Below, piece by piece: positions 457 through 61,610 of a stretch of 64,000 nucleotides of DNA (position 1 is the first letter of the stretch; each line of letters opens with the position of its first letter). This DNA comes from Hydra vulgaris (taxonomy: Eukaryota > Cnidaria > Hydrozoa > Anthoathecata > Hydridae). The position numbers were made by a program, and so were the translations under genes. Under the pieces are notes generated by a model. It saw nothing but the letters and a program-made list of their open reading frames with translations. It searched no databases and was not told where the DNA came from. The DNA lies in NCBI RefSeq assembly GCF_038396675.1, contig NC_088921.1, positions 27,335,001-27,399,000 on the forward strand. Direction: 5' to 3'.

Positions 457-647
457 AACATCATAAAATGATAGTGATTGCTTGCAAAATTGTTGGAAGA
501 AAATTATAAAAATGTAACGAAATATTAGGAACTACAAGTTTTTTTTCTTGCCCTAGCTATCAACTCCAGCTAAATCTTATAGTTTTGCCGGGGCTGCAAA
601 AACTCTAATTTTTAGCCAGGGCGGTGGCCTCGCTCACCGATAACAAG

Positions 648-1390
648 TCATGGAAACCTACTGATCGTGCAACACTATTGAGTTTAACAGCAGATGTACC
701 AATGTTTTTAGAACTATTAGTATCTTGTTTTGAAAAGCTACAGGCTCATTCTTTTTTTGCTCACTCTCAATTACAGTACCTTAACTAACTAAAACAAAAT
801 ATGGATCAATCAAACATTATCATTATTGGCAACTCTGCTGAACACTATGCTTTTTGTGGTCCAAGACGAAATACAAAGCTATCATTAGAACACCCAACAA
901 TGTTCTTTACATCCATTAGTTTAATAATATAAAGATGATAAAGGTGTACTGAAAAGTCTTTTTCACTGTTTTATATTTGACGACATTACTCATGATGTAA
1001 CTTATGCGTAAACAATATTCCAACAAACCATACCAATTTTAAAAACTTTTTCTAGCTGTCTAAATTACATTTATTCACTGATGGTTGCGCAAGACAGTAC
1101 AAAATTTGTAAAAGCTTTCACTATCCATGCCAACTAGAAAGCGATTTGCCCTTAATGTTGAATGGAACTCTTTTGCCATGATCCACAGAAAGTAAACCAT
1201 GCGATGGGATTGGCGATACTGTAAAAAGGTTAACACTGCAAGAAAGTTTAAAACGACCATACAGAAACCAAATTGTCACATCAGAAGCTATGAATTTTGT
1301 ATTGTGATATTTAAGGTTGTTAACTTTATTTACATAAAGGGATTAGACTTACAATTGCAATGTGAAGAGCAAAAAGAATGATGCACTGGT
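648..1390 (+). pseudogene. Decayed DDE-like transposase (FVVQDE / DGCxxQYK family)
   Basis: No intact frame remains, but joined frames show conserved blocks in order: WKPTDRATLLSLTAD (about 653), FVVQDEIQSYH (about 853), DDITHDV (about 980), FTDGCARQYK (about 1076), NVEWNSFAMIH (about 1150) and CDGIGDTVKR (about 1200). This order is the one I know from an abundant, unnamed family of transposon-encoded proteins in invertebrates; the spaced acidic residues suggest a DDE fold, which is inference. Several frameshifts and in-frame stops, one after the IHRK block, show that it is dead. An inverted copy lies at 9285-10027. Confidence 0.65.
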
Positions 1391-1489
1391 GTTCACTCTA
1401 CCTGGTACTCATAGCTTTTACCAGTTTATACATCTTGGAGATAATATATAATTATTATTATATAATGAGTGTCGGTACTACACCTCTTC

Positions 1490-1584
1490 AGATTATTATA
1501 TAATTAGTGTCAATACTACACCTCTTTGCCCCAACTCAGTTGGGGCAAAGAAGTGTAGTACCGACACTAATTATATAATAATCT
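1490..1584. repeat. 95-bp near-perfect palindrome
   Basis: Arms of 47 bp pair around a single central C at 1537, with the core CCCCAACT-C-AGTTGGGG and ends AGATTATTATA / TATAATAATCT. Two or three positions mismatch. A partial extra copy of one arm (GTGTCGGTACTACACCTCTT) lies just upstream at 1470-1489. It looks like a foldback MITE. Confidence 0.85.
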
Positions 1585-1591
1585 GTTGCAC

Positions 1592-2440
1592 AAGCATGCT
1601 CTAATTTCAGTAGAAACTGTATTTGAAAATTTGAAATAGAAGAAGTACAAGTAAAATGGCAACAATGTTGTGAACTATTACGAACACACTCAAAATAACT
1701 TACACCTTATCTAATCTTTTATATTTAAGTAACTTTTGAAGTTATGATAACTTATTTTTATTTCATTTACAAATATTTTTTGGGAATTTCTTCAAAAAAT
1801 TATACATCTTTGAAATTAAAATTCTATATGTTTCAGTATTTTTTTCCGATTAGATATTTTGTGCCTAATAAGATCATAAGCAGCTAAAAATATTACCAGC
1901 AAAAAAAAATATATATATATTTGACGAGGGTGTTTTGAAATATTGGGCCCCAAAGTGGGTTTATTGAAACTAGTTGTTTGATTAACTTTTAAGCATGTTC
2001 CTTTAATATTTCAGAATTTTAAGTACATTTATTGAATTCAGCATCAAAATTTTTTTTTTTTCAAATTTTTGCTATTTTTATTTCTTTATGAATTTTATGA
2101 TAACCGGATGATTATGGGAAACCAGGGTAATGTTAAAGCTGCAGTATCTTATCAACCGCTCAACATTTTTAGCTTAAATTTGCACACAATATTTTTTTAT
2201 AACTAGGAATGTGTAAAAACGTAACTCAAAAAGAAGACACATCGTTCAATGGACTGGGCGATTTGATGTGGAATTACCTTACTTTGTTTTCAACAACAGC
2301 TACCCAAGATACATCATTAGTGCCATCATTCTTTTAGGCTGAGGAGGCTGTCTGTGATAATATTAGCAATGTCATTACTTATGTATCATGTGTTGATATG
2401 CATGCGTGATTGGGTAGTTATCAGCCAATCAAAACAGTAA
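1592..2440. other. Non-coding part of the palindrome arm
   Basis: AT-rich sequence between the hairpin and the Tc1 relic. I find no coding block here and no convincing left terminal repeat for the Tc1 relic. Confidence 0.5.
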
Positions 2441-2444
2441 AACC

Positions 2445-3507
2445 ATGGTTATATATACCATCGCATGCGTGGCTGTGAATTACTATATGCATTTGACTAT
2501 GGCGACAACATCACCTGGAAAACGTGCTAAAAAACAACTTTTAATGGAAGACGAACTGTCTGAATGTGCGATTGTCGCACGTTTACAAATGCCTAAGACA
2601 ACTGTTCACGACGTCATTCAGCACATCAATTCAACAGGCACCCGCGCTGCAGGAAGATCCAGTGGCAGAACGTGATGTACCCATCAAAAACTGACACTAT
2701 AATCCGCCATGCAGCCACAAAACACCCACTGGCATCATCTTCACAAATTCTCAATGAACTGCCTCCTGATGCAAATGTGAGCTCTCGCAACGTTCGGCGA
2801 CGTCTTGTGGACAAATTCAGTATTCGATCCTATCGCGCTGCATTAAAACCACGACTTCTCAGAAAAATATTCGTGACCGCCTCAAATTTTGTAAAGTACA
2901 TAAAAATTAGACCGTGGCAATGTGGCGACGTGTCACGTTCTCAGACGAATTGCAGGTGAAATAATTTGCCATGCATAAAGTGAATGTTCGACGGCCACCA
3001 AACACACGCTACAATGTCCGTCATGTTGCTCCAGCGGTAAAGCATTGCCCTACAATTTTGATTTGGTAGCAATTACTGCCAGAGTTCGAGTGGGAATCCA
3101 TTTCATGCTGCCAGGTGAAACTATCAAAGCTGTTAATTATTTGCAAATAATAAAGGAAAATGTTCCTATTTGGCTCAAAACTCGCAACTGTGACATCTTT
3201 ATGCATGACGGCGCGCCATGTCATCAGGCAAAGATCGTCAAGACATGGTTTCAAGAGAACTCCATCAATGTTCTTGCTCTGTGGCCTGGCTCGTCATCAG
3301 ATTTAAACCCAATTGAAAATTGCTGGTCAAAATTGAAAGCTGAAGTGGCAAACGCAAACTAGACGTCGGCGACAATTTTGAAGGAGGCTATACTGGAGGC
3401 GTGGTCCCAAAAAAAAAGGCCTGATTACTGTAACTCTCTCGTTGCCTCTCTGCCTCGAAGAATAGAAGGTGTCCTCAAAGCCGGACGAAGGCATTCGAGG
3501 TACTAGA
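2445..3507 (+). pseudogene. Tc1/mariner-type transposase relic, left arm
   Basis: A likely start is the ATG at 2499 (MATTSPGKRAKK). An N-terminal helix-turn-helix region follows, then after a frameshift near 2670 the SSSQILNELPP and VSSRNVRRRL block typical of the paired-like DNA-binding domain. The catalytic core appears as TFSDELQ (about 2935), MHDGAPCHQAK (about 3200) and DLNPIENCW (about 3305), so all three acidic positions survive. Thirty-five residues separate the second D from the E. Frameshifts near 2670, 2860 and 2960-3045 and a stop at 3361 break it. The motif AACAAGCACTG followed by TA at 3662-3674 could be its right end. Confidence 0.85.
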
Positions 3508-3899
3508 AACTCTTTTCTGATGTGAACAACTTGTTGCTTTCTTCGAAAGTGTGTCATTGACTTAGGTGAATGTTGTTTGCTGCGTTTAATTCAATCATAT
3601 TATTATTAAATTGAAGTAGTATTACGTTTCTGTCTAAAAACTTTAGTGATTGGATCTTTTTAACAAGCACTGTAATTGACAATGGCGCAGAAAACGTCCA
3701 GCAAAAAAATTGTGATTTTTCTAAATCTGCATAAACTGTCGGAAAGCAGATCACATGTTTTCAATCATCAACATTTTATCTTATTAAGCAAAATAAACAG
3801 AAGGTTATACAAAAATGGATGTGTTATTCCCCAGTGAAAGGATTAGTATATTGCATCCATTATGAGGTACTCGGCTTAGGACATTAATCTAACATTTTT

Positions 3900-6565: not shown

Positions 6566-7166
6566 AGCAATAAAATTTTAAAGAGTATGCCGAAATTAGT
6601 TTTATGTAAAATATTTTAGGATTTTTTGATGTGTTTCGATTATTGGAAAAAATATACTTTGACTGAAATTGTCTCAGTAAACACAAGTCGTGTTTAATGT
6701 GTATAAAATTATGTGTTTTAATTTGTATTTTCTAAAACGTCTAAAATACATTTCAGTTGTTTAATTATTTCATTTCAATTGTTTGATTAATGCCCTAAGC
6801 CGAGTACCTCATAATGGATGCAATATACTAATCCTTTCACTGGGGAATAACACATCCATTTTTGTATAACCTTCTGTTTATTTTGCTTAATAAGATAAAA
6901 TGTTGATGATTGAAAACATGTGATCTGCTTTCCGACAGTTTATGCAGATTTAGAAAAATCACAATTTTTTTGCTGGACGTTTTCTGCGCCATTGTCAATT
7001 ACAGTGCTTGTTAAAAAGATCCAATCACTAAAGTTTTTAGACAGAAACGTAATACTACTTCAATTTAATAATAATATGATTGAATTAAACGCAGCAAACA
7101 ACATTCACCTAAGTCAATGACACACTTTCGAAGAAAGCAACAAGTTGTTCACATCAGAAAAGAGTT

Positions 7167-8229
7167 TCTAGTACCTCGAATGCCTTCGTCCGGCTTTGAG
7201 GACACCTTCTATTCTTCGAGGCAGAGAGGCAACGAGAGAGTTACAGTAATCAGGCCTTTTTTTTTGGGACCACGCCTCCAGTATAGCCTCCTTCAAAATT
7301 GTCGCCGACGTCTAGTTTGCGTTTGCCACTTCAGCTTTCAATTTTGACCAGCAATTTTCAATTGGGTTTAAATCTGATGACGAGCCAGGCCACAGAGCAA
7401 GAACATTGATGGAGTTCTCTTGAAACCATGTCTTGACGATCTTTGCCTGATGACATGGCGCGCCGTCATGCATAAAGATGTCACAGTTGCGAGTTTTGAG
7501 CCAAATAGGAACATTTTCCTTTATTATTTGCAAATAATTAACAGCTTTGATAGTTTCACCTGGCAGCATGAAATGGATTCCCACTCGAACTCTGGCAGTA
7601 ATTGCTACCAAATCAAAATTGTAGGGCAATGCTTTACCGCTGGAGCAACATGACGGACATTGTAGCGTGTGTTTGGTGGCCGTCGAACATTCACTTTATG
7701 CATGGCAAATTATTTCACCTGCAATTCGTCTGAGAACGTGACACGTCGCCACATTGCCACGGTCTAATTTTTATGTACTTTACAAAATTTGAGGCGGTCA
7801 CGAATATTTTTCTGAGAAGTCGTGGTTTTAATGCAGCGCGATAGGATCGAATACTGAATTTGTCCACAAGACGTCGCCGAACGTTGCGAGAGCTCACATT
7901 TGCATCAGGAGGCAGTTCATTGAGAATTTGTGAAGATGATGCCAGTGGGTGTTTTGTGGCTGCATGGCGGATTATAGTGTCAGTTTTTGATGGGTACATC
8001 ACGTTCTGCCACTGGATCTTCCTGCAGCGCGGGTGCCTGTTGAATTGATGTGCTGAATGACGTCGTGAACAGTTGTCTTAGGCATTTGTAAACGTGCGAC
8101 AATCGCACATTCAGACAGTTCGTCTTCCATTAAAAGTTGTTTTTTAGCACGTTTTCCAGGTGATGTTGTCGCCATAGTCAAATGCATATAGTAATTCACA
8201 GCCACGCATGCGATGGTATATATAACCAT
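7167..8229 (-). pseudogene. Tc1/mariner-type transposase relic, right arm
   Basis: Mirror copy of the 2445-3507 relic with the same frameshifts and the same stop, so the gene was already dead when the arms were formed or homogenised. The HDGAPCH and DLNPIENCW blocks lie at about 7465 and 7360. Confidence 0.85.
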
Positions 8230-9090
8230 GGTTTTACTGTTTTGATTGGCTGATAACTACCCAATCACGCATGCATATCAACACATGATACATAAGTAAT
8301 GACATTGCTAATATTATCACAGACAGCCTCCTCAGCCTAAAAGAATGATGGCACTAATGATGTATCTTGGGTAGCTGTTGTTGAAAACAAAGTAAGGTAA
8401 TTCCACATCAAATCGCCCAGTCCATTGAACGATGTGTCTTCTTTTTGAGTTACGTTTTTACACATTCCTAGTTATAAAAAAATATTGTGTGCAAATTTAA
8501 GCTAAAAATGTTGAGCGGTTGATAAGATACTGCAGCTTTAACATTACCCTGGTTTCCCATAATCATCCGGTTATCATAAAATTCATAAATAAATAAAAAT
8601 AGCAAAAATTTGAAAAAAAAAAAAATTTTGATGCTGAATTCAATAAATGTACTTAAAATTCTGAAATATTAAAGGAACATGCTTAAAAGTTAATCAAACA
8701 ACTAGTTTCAATAAACCCACTTTGGGGCCCAATATTTCAAAACACCCTCGTCAAATATATATATATTTTTTTTTGCTGGTAATATTTTTAGCTGCTTATG
8801 ATCTTATTAGGCACAAAATATCTAATCGGAAAAAAATACTGAAACATATAGAATTTTAATTTCAAAGATGTATAATTTTTTGAAGAAATTCCCAAAAAAT
8901 ATTTGTAAATGAAATAAAAATAAGTTATCATAACTTCAAAAGTTACTTAAATATAAAAGATTAGATAAGGTGTAAGTTATTTTGAGTGTGTTCGTAATAG
9001 TTCACAACATTGTTGCCATTTTACTTGTACTTCTTCTATTTCAAATTTTCAAATACAGTTTCTACTGAAATTAGAGCATGCTTGTGCAAC

Positions 9091-9185
9091 AGATTATTAT
9101 ATAATTAGTGTCGGTACTACACTTCTTTGCCCCAACTGAGTTGGGGCAAAGAGGTGTAGTATTGACACTAATTATATAATAATCT
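9091..9185. repeat. 95-bp palindrome, right-arm copy
   Basis: Mirror of the hairpin at 1490-1584, including its mismatches. Confidence 0.85.
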
Positions 9186-9284
9186 GAAGAGGTGTAGTAC
9201 CGACACTCATTATATAATAATAATTATATATTATCTCCAAGATGTATAAACTGGTAAAAGCTATGAGTACCAGGTAGAGTGAAC

Positions 9285-10027
9285 ACCAGTGCATCATTCT
9301 TTTTGCTCTTCACATTGCAATTGTAAGTCTAATCCCTTTATGTAAATAAAGTTAACAACCTTAAATATCACAATACAAAATTCATAGCTTCTGATGTGAC
9401 AATTTGGTTTCTGTATGGTCGTTTTAAACTTTCTTGCAGTGTTAACCTTTTTACAGTATCGCCAATCCCATCGCATGGTTTACTTTCTGTGGATCATGGC
9501 AAAAGAGTTCCATTCAACATTAAGGGCAAATCGCTTTCTAGTTGGCATGGATAGTGAAAGCTTTTACAAATTTTGTACTGTCTTGCGCAACCATCAGTGA
9601 ATAAATGTAATTTAGACAGCTAGAAAAAGTTTTTAAAATTGGTATGGTTTGTTGGAATATTGTTTACGCATAAGTTACATCATGAGTAATGTCGTCAAAT
9701 ATAAAACAGTGAAAAAGACTTTTCAGTACACCTTTATCATCTTTATATTATTAAACTAATGGATGTAAAGAACATTGTTGGGTGTTCTAATGATAGCTTT
9801 GTATTTCGTCTTGGACCACAAAAGCATAGTGTTCAGCAGAGTTGCCAATAATGATAATGTTTGATTGATCCATATTTTGTTTTAGTTAGTTAAGGTACTG
9901 TAATTGAGAGTGAGCAAAAAAAGAATGAGCCTGTAGCTTTTCAAAACAAGATACTAATAGTTCTAAAAACATTGGTACATCTGCTGTTAAACTCAATAGT
10001 GTTGCACGATCAGTAGGTTTCCATGAC
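9285..10027 (-). pseudogene. Decayed DDE-like transposase, right-arm copy
   Basis: Mirror of 648-1390. It keeps the DGCARQYK and CDGIGDTVKR blocks and the same disruptions. Confidence 0.65.
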
Positions 10028-10213
10028 TTGTTATCGGTGAGCGAGGCCACCGCCCTGGCTAAAAATTAGAGTTTTTGCAGCCCCGGCAAAACTATAAGAT
10101 TTAGCTGGAGTTGATAGCTAGGGCAAGAAAAAAAACTTGTAGTTCCTAATATTTCGTTACATTTTTATAATTTTCTTCCAACAATTTTGCAAGCAATCAC
10201 TATCATTTTATGA

Positions 10214-18155: not shown

Positions 18156-18220
<65 letters not shown>

Positions 18221-18261
18221 AATATATAAATATATATATTTATATATATGTATATATATAA

Positions 18262-18309
<48 letters not shown>

Positions 18310-18316
18310 CAATATG

Positions 18317-18356
<40 letters not shown>

Positions 18357-18363
18357 TGTATAA

Positions 18364-18406
<43 letters not shown>

Positions 18407-18487
18407 CATATATGTATATGTATATATATATACATATATATACATATACATATATGTAAAAATATATATATTTTTATGTATATATAA

Positions 18488-18551
<64 letters not shown>

Positions 18552-18567
18552 TATATATTTTTTTTAA

Positions 18568-18624
<57 letters not shown>

Positions 18625-18626
18625 AA

Positions 18627-18668
<42 letters not shown>

Positions 18669-18677
18669 TATTTACAA

Positions 18678-18744
<67 letters not shown>
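18155..18744. repeat. Long TA-rich microsatellite array
   Basis: About 590 bp of (TA)n interrupted by TATGTATA, AAATATA and TTTTTTTAAATA units. Both strands show long open frames of alternating Tyr and Ile; these are artefacts. Confidence 0.97.
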
Positions 18745-19084: not shown

Positions 19085-22000
19085 TAGGGTATATCATACT
19101 TTTGCATGTTTTAATTTTCATTCAGTATGTCACTTTTCCTATGTATTCATAAACTCTGAGTTGAATGGTATGATTTATTTTGGTGAAAAAACAAGTCTAG
19201 CTACTGGGAAAACGTTTTTTAATTTTTAAAAAAATTGTGTTTTTTTACTAAATGATGACTGTTTATGTTATAAATGTACATAATAATTATTTAAAATATT
19301 GTTTAACCTTATGCCTAATTTTTATAATATGCTTTGAGTTTTTAACAAAATTATTTTGTGTATAAGTATCAGTTAATATTCAAATATACTTTGAAAATAT
19401 TATAATTACCATTTTAGATTTTATTTCAAATTAATTGCTATACTTGCTGTATTTATATCTTCCAGATTCATAATATATTAAAAAAAGAAAAATGGCATTA
19501 TCAGTTAGCAAGAAAACCAGAAAATCGATTAACACCAAACCAAGTGAGTATCTTGGAGGTCCTAAAAAGTTTCTCCAAACTGAATTTCCAACATTACGTG
19601 ATTGTTTGCAGCGATGTCTAGATCTGCAGCGAAACACAATACTAGTCTGTGAAAAAAATCCGCGTAACATATCAATGCAAGAAATTTTTTCTAATGTTGC
19701 TAATGAAGTTGCAGAACGGTGGCTTATTTCCAACACAGAATTTAAAGAACCCATAGTTTGTGGAACTAAAGCAATAGCACTAAGAATTAATAGAAGTTGG
19801 TCTGCATTCTCTAAGATAGCTCGACACAAATCTCAAAAGGCAAACAAAAAATGCTGGGAACCTAAACTTGATAAACTTTTAGATATTGCTTTTTGCAAAT
19901 GCAGAATCGTTTACTGCAGTGATAATGATGCCCCTTGCAACGAATCTTGTGATGACGGTGCTCATTGCTTTTGCAAATGTGACTTAAATTTAAGAATTCC
20001 TAAAAAAGAACTTATTTGGATAAAAACCCAGCGAGAAAAACAAGGCAGTGTTTCATGTATGCAAGAATTTGGTCTTGATCTTAAAGAGACTGCCAAACTT
20101 AGGCTAAAATGCTTACGCAAGTCAACTGATCAAGCAAGACTCACGCGACAACGTGAAGAAGCTTCAAAGTATAAGTTAGAATCATCAGTCTCTATTTATC
20201 CAACCGATGTTAGATTTGATGATGAAAGTACGGGTGTTACAATAGAAATTAATAATAATTCCAATGATGTGATAGTCAGTGATAGCGATAAAGTCAGTGA
20301 TAGCGAAGAGGACTCGACAATTGAAAATCAAGAGAGTTATGTTAAACTAAACTACCTTGATATTAGTAATGCTGTCGTTGCCTCTATCAGATTTGGTGTA
20401 TCATCGACTGCTACTGCTGCTATCATTAATGGTCTACTGAAAGGTATTATGAAGGCAGGGAAACTTGTTGAAAATAAAAAAAATCTCATATGTGATAGTA
20501 TGAAAGTTTTTCGTGCCAAAGAGTGTGCTATGAAGTATTCTAGAGTAGAAGAAAATTTCGACTGTGAAAGAAATATAATTACTGGAATTTTTGTAGATGG
20601 TAGAAAAGATAAAACTTTAGTTCTTATCCATGATAAACCACAGGCACCTTCAGAAAACAAATTATCAAAGAAAATCATATAACTGTGACAGAAGAGCCTA
20701 GAGGTCGCTACCTTACTCATTATACACCAAAACCTAAGTCAGAAATATCTAAACCAGCTAAGCAATGTGCTATTGGATTATTCGACTGGTTAATGGAAAG
20801 AGGTAAAGATCTTAATCTCCAACTAATTGGCAGTGATACAACAAATGAAATGTCTGGATGGAAAGGTGGAATGCTTCATTTTGTGGAAGAACTTCTCAAT
20901 CGAAAACTTTTTAGATCTTTTTGCTGGCTTCACATTAATGAGCTTCCATTCCGTCATATTATGGAAAAACTTGATGGACCAACTTCTTCAGATAAAGGAT
21001 GGAGTGAAGCAGTAGGTAAACTGTTTTCCAAAGTAGAAAATCTTGAAAGAATTACTAAATTTATGCCAATTCCGCTTCTGGAGCCTCTTGTTACTATAAG
21101 TGAAGATTTCTTAAAGCAAATGAGCACTGACAGTTTAGTCGCATGGAAGTATTTAAATGCAATATTGAAAGGAAAGCTCGATCCTGAAGTAGCAGCTCTT
21201 AAATGTGGTAGATTGTCTCACAGTCGATGGCTTACTTGTGGCATGAGATGCCTGCTTCTCTATATGAGTAAACATGATCTTGAACCTGCTAATGCAGAGA
21301 TCTTAAGACTGCTTGCAACTTCGGTGACTCAGGTTTATTTTCCTATGTTCTTTGAGATTAAAGTTAAGCATGATATTAAATATGGTTCTTGTCATCTTTT
21401 AAAGTTGTTTCAACTTTGGCAGAAGCAAGATGATAGGATTAAAGAAGCATCTAAACTTTATCTCAAAAGTGAATCTTGGTGGGCTCATCCTGAGAATATA
21501 CTTGTCTCACTTCTCTGTTCTGATAACTCAGAACAAAGGTTATTTGCCGTTGACATAATATTGGCAGTTAAGGCCGGAAGTGAACTTGGCTCAACTGATG
21601 TTAGACCATTTAAAGTTCCGCAAACAATAAACCTTGATGCTTGTGACATCAAAGAACTTATCGACTGGGAAAAAAGAGGTCATCACTGAACCAATTTTCA
21701 CTGCAAATATGTCGTTAGTCCAACTCAATGCATTGATAGTTTCTCCCATGCAGCTACCTCTATACTCATTACATACCCAAAGTTGCGAGAGAGCAGTCAA
21801 ATTAGTCACAGAAGCAGCTCAGTCAGTCTGTGGTTTGGATAAAAGAGATGGTTTTATAAGAACTCAATTGCGAAATCGTGAATTAATGCCTTTGTTTAAA
21901 TCAAGAAAAGACTTTAAGTAATTTATGTAATTACTAATTTAGTATTTTTGATTTTTATTTATACTTTGTTGTGCATAACATTAAATGTTAAATAAATACT

Positions 22001-33129: not shown

Positions 33130-33218
<89 letters not shown>

Positions 33219-33255
33219 TATAATATATAACATATATTTATATATAAAATATAAT

Positions 33256-33290
<35 letters not shown>

Positions 33291-33356
33291 TCTATTTATA
33301 TATATATATAGTATATATATATATATATATGAATATATATATAATATATATATATA

Positions 33357-33368
<12 letters not shown>
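33130..33368. repeat. TA-rich microsatellite
   Basis: (TA)n with AATATATAA variants inside the CCAGTGGGC element. Confidence 0.95.
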
Positions 33369-33428
<60 letters not shown>

Positions 33429-34516: not shown

Positions 34517-34625
<109 letters not shown>

Positions 34626-43082: not shown

Positions 43083-43087
43083 CCATT
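43083..43087. repeat. 5-bp target-site duplication CATTG, left
   Basis: Directly precedes the CACAGTG terminus at 43088; repeated at 46083-46087. Confidence 0.85.
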
Positions 43088-43319
43088 GCACAGTGGGCCA
43101 GGTATATGGGAAGTGGTGGACAAAACCTAATTATTACCCAATTGGTCCACAAACCTATTTAGATATATAAATAATCATTATATATGAAATAATATTTATT
43201 TTTAACAAGAATATTTTAATTTTTAATAAAATAAAAGACATTTAATTGGCTTAGGTAGAAAAAAAATATTTTTTTCAATATCAACCTTTTTTAAAAATCA
43301 AACAACAAATTGTGTTTAG

Positions 43320-45370
43320 CTACAAAGAAAAAGAAGAAGGTGGAGCTGATTCCCTCAGCAAAGCCAAAACTTCACTGGGGTATTTTTTTAAACTCTTACC
43401 ATTTTTTTTATGACACTTTCTTAATGATGTTATGACAGGATCACTAGATACAAGTAGCCTGTTAACTAGGTCACGATTTGTGTCAATTCTGGAAGTCTTT
43501 CTACTGAAATCTTCCCTAAACTTTTTAAAATCCTTGTTACAGGCCTCTTGGGCCTCCTCTGACATCAGTCCAATTGGCAAGTACTGTCTAGCAATGATGG
43601 CATGGCCATGAACTAAAATTTTGTGTACTGATTGTGCCATGTAATACCAGGAATACTTAGATATGTAAAGTTTAAGAGCAGTAATACAGAACTCTTTAAA
43701 TTTGACAGTGTCAATTTTAAATCCAGATGATAAAGTGACTAGTATGATGTAAAAATAAAATAAAAGAGTTTCATCTACTTTCAAAATTTTGGCAGTTGAT
43801 TGATAGTTTGCAAAGGCTCGTCGGGCAGTGTTACCATCATTACTGGTACCTACAAATTGTATATATGTGATAGTTAACCTGATGATTTATATAAAAGTAT
43901 TTATGTAATTTCACTTACCAGATCCTCCACTTTTTGGGAAATCCACAACTAGTCCCATTTGGTTCATAAATTCTGTCTGTATACGTTTCTTCACTTGCAT
44001 AACATTTTCTTTATCTTCTATAGCTCTAGACTGCCACTTTTGAGTTTCTAGTTTATATCCAATATGCAATACCATCTCAAAAAACCTAATCCAGGCATGC
44101 AGGCTAGAAAGACCATATTTCAATTCTAAATTATTAGAATTGTCCAATTTCAGCACCATTTCTAAGTTATTCATGTTTTTTGGAGACACACCACACACAG
44201 AGCAACATTGAGTTGAGTTAGTCACATGAGACAGAATAGTTTGAATTTTGCCATCAATCATGGTCAGTTCAATAATACTTTTGACAACCAGTTCCTTTCC
44301 ATTAAAAGTAAAATTAAAAACACCACATTTTTTGATTTCAGATTCTAAATATTTTGCTTCTTCTATAACAACTGCTTTGCTTTCATTTTGAAAAGAAAAT
44401 CTTATTGGACGACAATATGCAGTAGATGATGGCTTTTCATTTCGCCATAATAGTACTTTTTTGTTATTACAGAACCCACTGAGTTCTAGTGGTGCTAAGC
44501 AGGTAATGAACAGAGATTCTTCTTTTTTTAAGTTACGATCTCCAGCTTCCTCACTACTAATTTGCTTGTACATGCTTTGCCCAGTAGCCCCATCAAACCC
44601 AGCCTTGCAACGCAAAGTCAACCGGGTCAAACCATCTAGCATTGTGCTGATCACAGGAGCTTGCACACTTCACAAAGTCTTTTTACTGTATGTTTTAATA
44701 ATTCTTGTAGTGGTACATGTGCTGAATAATCATCAAAAAAGATGTTCTCTGGATAGCACTTAGCTTTGGACAATCTTATGTTGTTGTATGAAGGATATAT
44801 ATGGCAGTCACGTTCTTCAGCTCCATTTCTCATAAGTTGGTAGGTTGATTTTGACATGCCACCATCTATAATTAATGCCAGACCTTCATCAGGTGTATAC
44901 TTTTTAAATTGACTAGAAGGTTCTGATATCTCAGCAACTTGCTTGGCAGCCTCATAATTATACTCATTTCTTAATTTAAGCCTTGCTGAGTGGAGCAACT
45001 CATCACTAGAAAAATTATTTATAATATCATTAAGTCTTCTCCTTTTGGTTTTGTCAGAAGCAACTTTAAAGGAACAACTTGGTCTTCCACCAATCTTATG
45101 TAATTGACTAGAATTATCAGGCTTAGATATATTATTACTGTATGTAGATTTAAAGTCCTGAGTCAACCAATTTTTATTTTTACTCTCAAACTTTATGTTT
45201 CCTCGGTTTGCATCCTTCCATTTCTTTTGATAAACTTTTAAAAATGCAGCACACCCAGTAGAACCCAAATTCATAGAGACTAAAATAGCTTCTACAGACA
45301 AAGAAAATGATTTATCACTCGGATTTAGTTGGTCATGCCGTATACGGTTATGGACATCACTTATCTTCAT
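43320..45370 (-). pseudogene. RAG1/Transib-superfamily transposase, one intron, one frameshift
   Basis: The start is ATG at 45370 (MKISDVHNRIRHDQ). After 237 open codons a small shift near 44658 leads into VQAPVISTMLDG and another 249 codons; a 69-bp intron (43918-43850, donor GTAAGT, acceptor TTTGTAG) joins the last 176 codons in frame. Total is about 660 residues. Blocks: CKAGFDGATGQSMYKQ, AYCRPIRFSFQNES, LTMIDGKIQTILSHV, CCSVCGVSP (zinc-binding-like), LSSLHAWIRFFEMVL, GGSGTSNDGNTARRAF and LPIGLMSEEAQEACNKDF. These are the landmarks of the RAG1-like DDE recombinases; the D of GFDGATG, the D of MIDGK and an E of the C-terminal part are candidate catalytic residues. It would cut at the CACAGTG ends. 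Confidence 0.85.
43850..43918 (-). other. Intron of the RAG1/Transib-type gene
   Basis: 69 bp, GTAAGT to TAG on the minus strand. Removal keeps the frame: GGSG joins TSNDGNTARR. Confidence 0.82.
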
Positions 45371-45372
45371 AT

Positions 45373-46050
45373 CAACTACAAAAAAATTAATTTAAAATTA
45401 TTAGTGCAACCACTATAAACTAATATAACATGAATATGGCCATTATTTTTATTTCAGATATATTTAATTAGGCCAGTACAATAAGCACAACACCTAATAA
45501 TGACAACAAACCGAAAAATAGGTTTGTCGCGAATAGCATTTTACAACAATATATATTTTTTTAAATGTTTACCAAACCTAAAGGGACAGCTATGAGCAGA
45601 ATAAAACAGCACCAACAGGCTGTACATATATTGTATTAACTTATTCTAACATTAATATGCTGTTCCAGCAGGTTCTAAACTATATGAGCCACTTTTAACA
45701 TAATATTTTTATACTATAAACAAGAATCTTACCTTTATATTTCAAAATAAAACTGTGACTTTAATACAAGACCTTGGAATTTGTTATGGTATTTTTTGAA
45801 AAGCTATCAAATTAAATTTTAATAATATGTCAATTAATTTCGCATATGTTAAATAAGTTATTTGTTGTTATAGTTATGTTGTTATGGTATATTAAAAAAA
45901 AAAAAAAATTAATTCATCATTATATTCAATTGTAAATAATAATTGTACATTTATGATGTACAATTAAACTACAAATAATGTTTTAAACCATACATTATGC
46001 TCTTATAAATATAATGTACTAAGTAGTTGGAAGTATTTCGAAATTTTTTT
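45373..46050. other. 5' non-coding part of the RAG1/Transib-type element
   Basis: AT-rich leader between the first codon and the right terminal repeat; no motif recognised. It should hold the promoter. Confidence 0.5.
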
Positions 46051-46082
46051 TTGAGGTTTTGTCTACCACCTGGCCCACTGTG

Positions 46083-46087
46083 CATTG
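46083..46087. repeat. 5-bp target-site duplication CATTG, right
   Basis: Directly follows the GTG end at 46082. Confidence 0.85.
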
Positions 46088-60062: not shown

Positions 60063-61560
60063 CATTTTTCTTTGACTGTTTGAGTTTTTCCCATTGAACT
60101 ATTGCTTCTTTTTCTTTTTCCCCGTCCGTCAGAACTTTCTGAATTTTGTAGGGCATACTCATTTGCACCGAATTGGTGGAAGAAGCTATATATGTCCATG
60201 CTCATTAGTTTGTTTTTTTTAATGGAGAACCATGGTCATCAAAATCTGAGTCGGACTCATGAAGTTTAGATTCTGAAAATGAATTTAATGATCCTTCTGA
60301 GTCTGATCCACTACCTCTTGCTACACTGAAGTCAATTTCTTTTGCTTGTTGTAAATGAGACTCAGAACAAAATTGGGAGAACTCTAGATAGAGTATTTCT
60401 TTAAACCTATTATTATTCGTTTCTTCAACAAACTTTAACTTGAAACGAGAACCAAGCATCATTGCAACTTTCAAATCAACATTATCCTTGTATTTTTGAA
60501 AACGACAGTTAAAATCTTTCTTAAGTTCATAAACAACAGTTTTGATTTCAGTTGCCGTGTCACAAGCATAGTCAAGAAACTTTTCCATTGCATAGATAAA
60601 TGGTATAATCTCTGATGTACATGCAGTTTCTTTACTCATTTCTTTTGTAGCACTTTCGAAGTGTTTTAATATGCATACAAGCATTTTAGCAAGTTGCCAT
60701 TGATTTTCCGTAGGATTCTTTGCATTTGTTTGAGTTCTGGTAATGCAATACAATGTAATAGCTTTTTTCTGCTCAATGAATCTCTCAAGCATATAGTATG
60801 TTGAATTCCATCTTGTGGACACATCTTGAAATATTTTGTGCTCTGGCAATTTTAATTGACTTTGAATTTCCTTTAGTTTAGTCACAGCACTGGATGAGTG
60901 ATGGAAATGTCCTGCTAATGCTCGAAAAACAGCAATTGCATCACTTGTTGTTTCTTGTTCTCTAAAGATCTTTTTCTGAACACAAAGTTGTAAAGTATGT
61001 ATCAGACATGGCAGATGCTTATCGCCCATATTTGACTCTTTAATGGCAGCCATTACATTGGCTGCATTATCAGTTAAAACTGCATGAATCTTTTCATGGG
61101 AAATTTCCCATGTTTGTAGCGCTTCATTTATGAATTTGCTTATATTGTGCCCTGTGTGCGACTCAGGGAAATGTGTAACTTGTAAGATGATATGGTTAAC
61201 TATAAATTCGTGGGTCACAAACCTAGCTGTTAAACTGTAATACGATTGAATTGTGTGCTGACAGGTCCAATCATCACAAGTTAAACTTAAAAAATCTGCT
61301 TGATCCAGCTCATATTTTACTTTGGCTTTTATGGTTTCATACATCAGCGGAATGACTTTCGCGGAGAAATACTTTCGACTAGGTATTGTATATTTTGGAG
61401 CTAAATTCTTTAAAAGTCTGGTAAAACCTTTATCTTCAACAATGCTGTATGGTTGCAAGTCCAAACATATCATTTCTCCAATAAGTTTGGTAATAACTTG
61501 AGCCTTTGGATTGTCAAGTTGCCACAATTCTTTTTTTTGCAAAATTTCCCGCAGAGAGAC
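60063..61560 (-). pseudogene. hAT exon 2: transposase core, 456 open codons
   Basis: An open run from the acceptor TTTGTTTCAG (61561) to a stop at 60205. It shows ISxFTRLLKNLAPKY-like N-terminal core, LSLTCDDWTCQHTIQSYYSL (first D pair), VLTDNAANVMAAIKES (second D), LPCLIHTLQLCVQKKI (CxxH), VSTRWNSTYYMLERF and a long alpha-helical middle. All hAT core motifs are present, as in ZBED-type transposases. The frame ends with an acidic Ser/Asp tail; a shift near 60215 continues as DIYSFFHQFGANEYAL to the donor AATG-GTAAGA at 60063. Likely dead, but recently so. Confidence 0.87.
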
Positions 61561-61610
61561 CTGAAACAAATTCAACGAATAAAAATTATTATTTAGTAAC
61601 TAACAATGAC

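Follow-up and report, generated by a model that had tools for sequence, protein, structure and literature searches.

The element and its ends

We analyzed a 64,000-nucleotide stretch of Hydra vulgaris DNA (NC_088921.1, positions 27,335,001 to 27,399,000 of the forward strand; hereafter the window), which contains a Transib transposon with one short and one long end. Read inward, each tip is CACAGTGGGCCAGGT, and a copy of CATTG borders the element on either side. The 15-mer was found exactly at 43089-43103 (+) and 46068-46082 (-), and a search of the window with up to 3 mismatches gave no further match; the chance expectation in the window was a mean of 0.32, and 5 of 100 shuffles reached 2. 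A first-pass annotation of this DNA had reported these tips and flanks, as well as one frameshift and one 69-bp intron in the gene, all of which agree with the positions below. It had also placed the element at 43088 to 46082; the end is correct, but the start is 43089, because 43088 belongs to the CATTG duplication. The features are as follows.

43084-43088, + strand: left copy of the target-site duplication, CATTG (from the sequence)
43089-46082, 2994 bp: the transposon as a whole, tips CACAGTGGGCCAGGT read inward, CATTG on both sides
43089-43095, + strand: heptamer CACAGTG of the long (23) end (from the sequence)
43096-43118, + strand: 23-bp spacer of the long end (from the sequence and other copies)
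43119-43127, + strand: nonamer-like box GACAAAACC of the long end
43144-43157, + strand: second box-like copy, GGTCCACAAACCTA, deeper in the long end (from the sequence)
43320-45370, - strand: transposase gene, ATG at 45370, stop at 43320-43322, frameshift between 44651 and 44669
43850-43918, - strand: 69-bp intron, GTAAGT...TTTGTAG (69 bp in 12 of 13 copies, 68 in one)
44921-45091, - strand: nonamer-binding-type domain region, starting GGRP, residues about 94-150
46055-46063, - strand: nonamer-like box GACAAAACC of the short end
46064-46075, - strand: 12-bp spacer of the short end
46076-46082, - strand: heptamer CACAGTG of the short (12) end (from the sequence)
46083-46087, + strand: right copy of the target-site duplication, CATTG (from the sequence)

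Both ends begin with CACAGTG, the exact heptamer of the recombination signal sequence (RSS), as had been claimed, and this fits the CACWRTG-like heptamer with which Transib ends begin; CACAGTG-like tips per se are an already known Transib feature. In the right end the order is CACAGTG-12 bp-GACAAAACCT, in the left end CACAGTG-23 bp-GACAAAACCT; these are the spacers between heptamer and box expected of a 12/23 asymmetric Transib. Where the first-pass annotation had suggested looking for a nonamer-like word at a constant distance from the heptamer, the ends carry the nonamer-like box at 12 bp in the short and 23 bp in the long end. Counted from the first base after the heptamer as 0, the A-tract lies at 15-18 in the short end and 26-29 in the long end, where the consensus RSS has 14-18 and 25-29 (PMC8289069). 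The GGTCCACAAACCTA copy is a possible extra binding site. The 12/23-spaced box, the nonamer-binding-type domain and the sister families described below are points that the earlier annotation missed.

The transposase

The protein obtained by reading through the frameshift is 99% identical over 96% of its length to the Hydra vulgaris protein P0001, in keeping with the cnidarian host that had been proposed. In single-sequence comparisons it matched HzTransib with an E value of 1.7e-97 and RAG1 with 0.22. Its scores were 595 bits to HzTransib, 48 to RAG1 and 46 to BbRAG1L; the transposase is homologous to Transib transposases. Residues D259, D372, E581, C389, C392, H559 and H564 are present in the window copy, and their columns are conserved in A1 and A2. 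From the alignment, we take D259, D372 and E581 to be the catalytic DDE triad and C389, C392, H559 and H564 to be zinc residues. The N-terminal domain aligns with the RAG1 nonamer-binding domain (NBD), and the transposase carries a RAG1-type domain of this kind.

A Pfam search of three pieces of the gene returned RAG1 (PF12940) alone, in the last exon, at 19.5 bits (cut-off 25), and a search of the intact homolog P0001 gave no match. Inside the element, there was no other frame of at least 60 aa except two antisense to the transposase, and no convergent RAG2L gene was present. The element is a Transib of Hydra whose nearest relative is HzTransib, and not a RAG1L/RAG2L element. The earlier designation "RAG1/Transib-type" holds for its Transib half, while "RAG1-type" was overstated, given the two E values and a single gene with no second sizeable frame.

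Copies, youth and insertion sites

The genome searched comprised 911.5 Mb in 15 contigs. Allowing at most 1 mismatch, CACAGTGGGCCAGGT gave 302+278 matches, compared with 1+10 for a reversed control; a genome-wide search for further copies with these ends had been outlined in the first-pass annotation. Of the 100 listed 15-mer places, 52 were covered by the forty regions that we fetched, and these held 13 full-length copies: L038-L049, in which both tips are exact and of which L043 is the window copy, plus L059. The choice of exact tips cannot favour short-long pairs, because the 15-mer is common to both end types. All 13 copies have perfect 5-bp duplications and one short plus one long end. 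The short spacer is 12 in every copy and the long spacer is 23 in 12 of them; in L045 it is 22 and the box is damaged.

The full-length copies differ by 0.2-0.6% from their majority, with a mean pairwise difference of 0.66%, and under the window's gene model the frame is open in 1 of 13 (L046). Recent activity, which had earlier been thought probable, is therefore likely, as judged from the similarity of the copies. The uniform 5-bp duplications, with none of 3-4 bp, are those of Transib and not the 4 bp that the first-pass annotation gave for Chapaev. CMC-Transib has been named as one of 14 families that are putatively active and enriched in AEP versus strain 105, and repeats make up 596 Mb (65.3%) of the AEP genome (PMC12220107).

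The duplications favour a palindromic C-A-N-T-G, with C first in 38 of 46 and A second in 29 of 46 (23 copies, both strands). This tally took copies with 5 of 5 letters and dropped L054, L061, L069, L072 and L074 as imperfect; L086 and L087 had been found partly via their duplication, and L070 was counted at its outer tip. L070, a family 2 copy, has a doubled heptamer, CACAGTGCACAGTGGGCC, at its minus-strand end (2366-2373). Its 5-bp duplication (CGATG) is perfect when counted from the outer heptamer copy and not from the inner one, as though the outer heptamer had served as the tip when the element moved.

End pairing across the genome

Exact matches to CACAGTGGGCC followed by GACAAAA numbered 434+439 genome-wide with a spacer of 19-34 and 393+398 with a spacer of 9-18; the reversed control gave 0 in both cases. 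The pairing analysis covered every one of the 100 long ends on the list and, of the 100 short ends, 90; the final 10 fall outside the stretch spanned by the long list. Long spacers in this sample were 21 (82 ends), 23 (15), 22 (2) and 27 (1), and short spacers were 12 (83), 11 (4) and 9, 14 and 15 (1 each). The spacer-27 end (C1:28514311) is a short end whose tip is doubled, and it also stands in the short list; its pairing used the inner tip, which gave a short-long pair.

Altogether, 120 of the 190 ends formed 60 convergent pairs within 6 kb, leaving 30 short and 40 long ends unpaired. All 60 pairs were short-long (53 of type 12/21 and 7 of type 12/23), with no like-end pair. When the labels were shuffled, like-end pairs averaged 29.8 and were never fewer than 18 in 10000 rounds.

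Sister Transib families in Hydra

In two protein searches of the genome, ends were then assigned from CAC, tip similarity and duplication. Credible end pairs were found in 11 of the 22 protein-hit loci (L080-L101), namely L084, L086-L093, L095 and L098, and not in the other 11 (L080-L083, L085, L094, L096, L097 and L099-L101). Every one of these 11 pairs was short plus long. They define family X (L084, L086, L087) and family Y (L089, L092, L095), both with GGTC in place of GGCC, and add four copies (L088, L090, L091, L093) to a fourth family first seen as L054 and L066, and one (L098) to family 3. The resulting count of six refers to families with identified ends, and the P0017 family is not among them. 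Ends with a spacer of 18 (L050-L053, L058, L075) were considered as a seventh type and rejected: their outer flanks are alike, which we take to mean that a single insertion was copied as part of a larger repeat, and they are left out of the count.

Comparing one end pair per family, we found the best shift of the box between short and long ends to be 11 bp in families 1 (the window's) and 2, 9 bp in 3 and 4, and 10 bp in X and Y, with 11, 11, 10, 10, 7 and 11 of 12 positions matching, respectively (order 1, 2, 3, 4, X, Y). All six families with identified ends are thus asymmetric by 9-11 bp. Long spacers range from 21 to 23 across the families, and two families are exactly 12/23. Spacer length is kept better than spacer sequence, because spacer middles of equal length are merely 50-55% identical between families. 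Transposase identity among families 1, 2, 3 and X is 43-63%, and the two 12/23 families group together in the tree (100/100; tree without RAG1 outgroup).

Family 3 (e.g. L078, L097-L099) is a large 12/21 family of about 3.3 kb, whose protein is 57-58% identical to that of the window element; of 68 scored matches in one of the protein searches, more than 30 lack an internal stop.

A model of unlike-end pairing and its alternatives

The anatomy of the element, its homology, its copies and their duplications, the spacing of the ends and their pairing in the genome were established in the analysis. From these sequence data we infer how the ends might be bound and cut and which of them are preferred together. 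We propose, with a probability of roughly 0.6, that this is a young Transib cut-and-paste transposon whose transposase dimer most likely pairs one short with one long end via linked nonamer-binding-type domains. The transposase would comprise a DDE RNase-H-type core, zinc-binding Cys/His pairs and the N-terminal nonamer-binding-type domain, and would touch each end twice, at the terminal heptamer CACAGTG, where it would cut, and at the internal A-tract box. The box would lie about one helical turn in at the short end (spacer 12) and two turns in at the long end (spacer 23; 21 to 23 across families), and the linked domains of the dimer would best fit this short/long offset, as in RAG. The excised DNA would insert at CANTG-like sites, giving the 5-bp duplication, and unlike-end pairing would work without RAG2. 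The case for this model consists of the homology to HzTransib, the catalytic and zinc residues, the alignment of the NBD with that of RAG1, and the consistent short-long arrangement in 13 of 13 copies, 60 of 60 pairs, 6 of 6 families and 11 of 11 protein-hit pairs.

Several observations weigh against this model. The box matches the RSS nonamer ACAAAAACC at only 6 of 9 positions at 12/23 and 7 of 9 at 13/24, and in the window copy alone the shared box is weak, its score being reached by 63 of 2000 shuffles; because the box in a single copy is weak evidence, the case rests on the other copies and families. For family X, the shift of 10 bp wins narrowly (7 of 12 versus 6 of 12 at shift 9), and 53 of the 60 sampled pairs are 12/21 rather than 12/23. 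One apparent like-end pair was also seen: in L056, 316 bp separate two short ends, with palindromic flanks and no 5-bp duplication. It lies outside the pairing tally because its second end reads CACAGTGAGCC and was excluded by the exact pattern, and we read it as a rearrangement because its flanks form a palindrome, not a 5-bp duplication. Furthermore, the pairing counts are not independent, because copies inherit the ends of their family and all six families probably go back to one asymmetric ancestor. The genomic pairing pattern fits a 12/23 rule, yet descent could produce the same pattern. Finally, it has been argued that invertebrate RAGL depends chiefly on the outermost 15-17 bp and does not respond to asymmetry (PMC7204232).

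In an alternative that we regard as rather unlikely, the element is an ordinary Transib whose ends are unlike by descent only: an ancestor had additional bases at one of its ends, and recognition by the transposase is confined to the terminal ~15 bp, whatever the spacer. Copying alone yields uniform pairing, most Transib families have symmetric ends according to PMC8289069, and the dependence on 15-17 terminal bp expected of invertebrate RAGL (PMC7204232) suits it as well. However, the box and its 9-11-bp offset have persisted while the long spacers drifted to 50-55% identity, 83 of 90 sampled short ends have a spacer of 12, and the transposase retains a nonamer-binding-type domain.

Equally doubtful in our judgment is the possibility that the asymmetry is functional and the likeness to the 12/23 spacing of RSSs is convergent, such that bipartite paired ends may settle near one and two turns and exact 12/23 is one outcome within a range of 12/21 to 12/23. 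The occurrence of long spacers of 21, 22 and 23 in Hydra is consistent with this, as is the drift of lengths in relatives, with 27/31 in ProtoRAG (PMC8289069) and 4/13 in AanRAGL (PMC9435367). It is countered by the homologous transposases and nonamer-binding-type domains, by a heptamer identical to that of RSSs and an A-tract register close to theirs, and by the 12/23 Transibs also reported from insects (PMC8355894). That the element is a RAG1L (RAGL-type) transposon, nearer to RAG1 than to Transib, is highly improbable: the RAG1 fold and the RAG1 Pfam hit below threshold in the last exon speak for it, whereas the protein scores 595 bits to HzTransib and 48 to RAG1.

Returning to unlike-end pairing, we suggest tentatively, and with rather less than even confidence, that the Hydra transposase, without RAG2, imposes a rule of one turn at one end and two turns at the other by means of its nonamer-binding-type domain, and that the central part of the V(D)J 12/23 rule, with the same heptamer and A-tract register, would have existed in Transib-type transposition before immunity made use of it. 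The element offers a way to ask whether the rule is older than the immune system. At least six Transib families of the Hydra genome have asymmetric ends, and in two the spacers are exactly 12/23; these families provide consensus heptamers, young copies and open frames. Because at least six such families occur in one genome, the preference of a RAG2-free transposase for unlike ends is directly testable.

Comparison with known systems

According to PMC8289069, the ends of most Transibs are symmetric and lack a clear nonamer, and HzTransib of Helicoverpa zea (PDB 6pqn, 6pqx) has symmetric ends with little nonamer likeness; the solved HzTransib chains start after the N-terminal domain. Ends of the 12/23 type with heptamer and nonamer-like words, as in Hydra, are described for Transib5 of Drosophila melanogaster and Transib2, N1, N2 and N3 of Anopheles gambiae (PMC8355894, citing a 2005 paper). 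The same source limits 12/23 Transibs to a few insect families and holds that jawed vertebrates recognise 12/23 asymmetry only with RAG2. By these descriptions, the Hydra elements differ from the insect ones in phylum, in their exact CACAGTG, and in having two exact 12/23 families beside 12/21 and 12/22 in one genome. Asymmetric ends are reported for Transib subgroups I and II in PMC9435367, as is a GRP nonamer-binding domain, and the same paper includes HvuTransib-7_HMp and HvuTransib-9_HMp (Repbase), from the same host species group and superfamily. Autonomous Transibs are usually present as one or a few per genome (PMC4411706).

With the RSSs of RAG1/RAG2 the Hydra element has in common CACAGTG, spacers of 12 and 23, the A-tract register, a nonamer-binding-type domain and the catalytic fold. 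It differs in having no RAG2 in the element, in serving transposition rather than gene assembly, and in a nonamer match of 6-7 of 9; the transposase is 16-18% identical to RAG1 in structural alignments. ProtoRAG and AanRAGL have asymmetric bipartite ends and 5-bp duplications, like the Hydra element (PMC8289069, PMC9435367). Their spacers are 27/31 and 4/13, respectively, and both carry RAG1L plus RAG2L genes, unlike the Hydra element.

Asymmetric Transib ends, and 12/23 spacing in a few insect Transibs, are already published; the Hydra contribution lies in the consensus heptamers, the several families and the young copies. Among the papers brought up by full-text searches, no title or abstract opening mentions 12/23 ends for Hydra; Hydra ends may be drawn in Fig. 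1g of PMC9435367. We have seen no published equivalent of a comparison of Transib end types within one genome, figures not being covered.

Other sequences

No relatives were confirmed in GTDB genome contigs (33 pattern stretches) or IMG/VR viral contigs (9). The 15-mer CACAGTGGGCCAGGT occurred in 29 viral contigs, with one match each, which we took as chance. An NCBI protein assigned to a Rickettsiales bacterium metagenome-assembled genome (P0015, K2P53_03655) is 95-96% identical to the chromosomal Hydra Transib copies L080, L082 and L087 and is probably host DNA in a bacterial bin, a case that bears on claims of bacterial Transibs.

Rfam at its gathering threshold and ARAGORN returned nothing on the window. 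A nearly perfect inverted repeat of about 3.4 kb lies at 461-3897 and 6777-10213 of the window, around a 2.9-kb centre. It consists of three abutting pieces, each 100% complementary, and holds two copies of a Tc1-type DDE_3 transposase fragment; it is either a recent inverted duplication or an assembly effect. Long open frames of 402, 350 and 464 aa at 19474-21686 (+) and 60208-61599 (-) had no Pfam match at E 0.01. The last of these (464 aa; 60208-61599, -) we take by eye to resemble a hAT-type transposase. Long TA microsatellite arrays occupy 18159-18744 (about 586 bp), 33130-33369 and 34517-34621.
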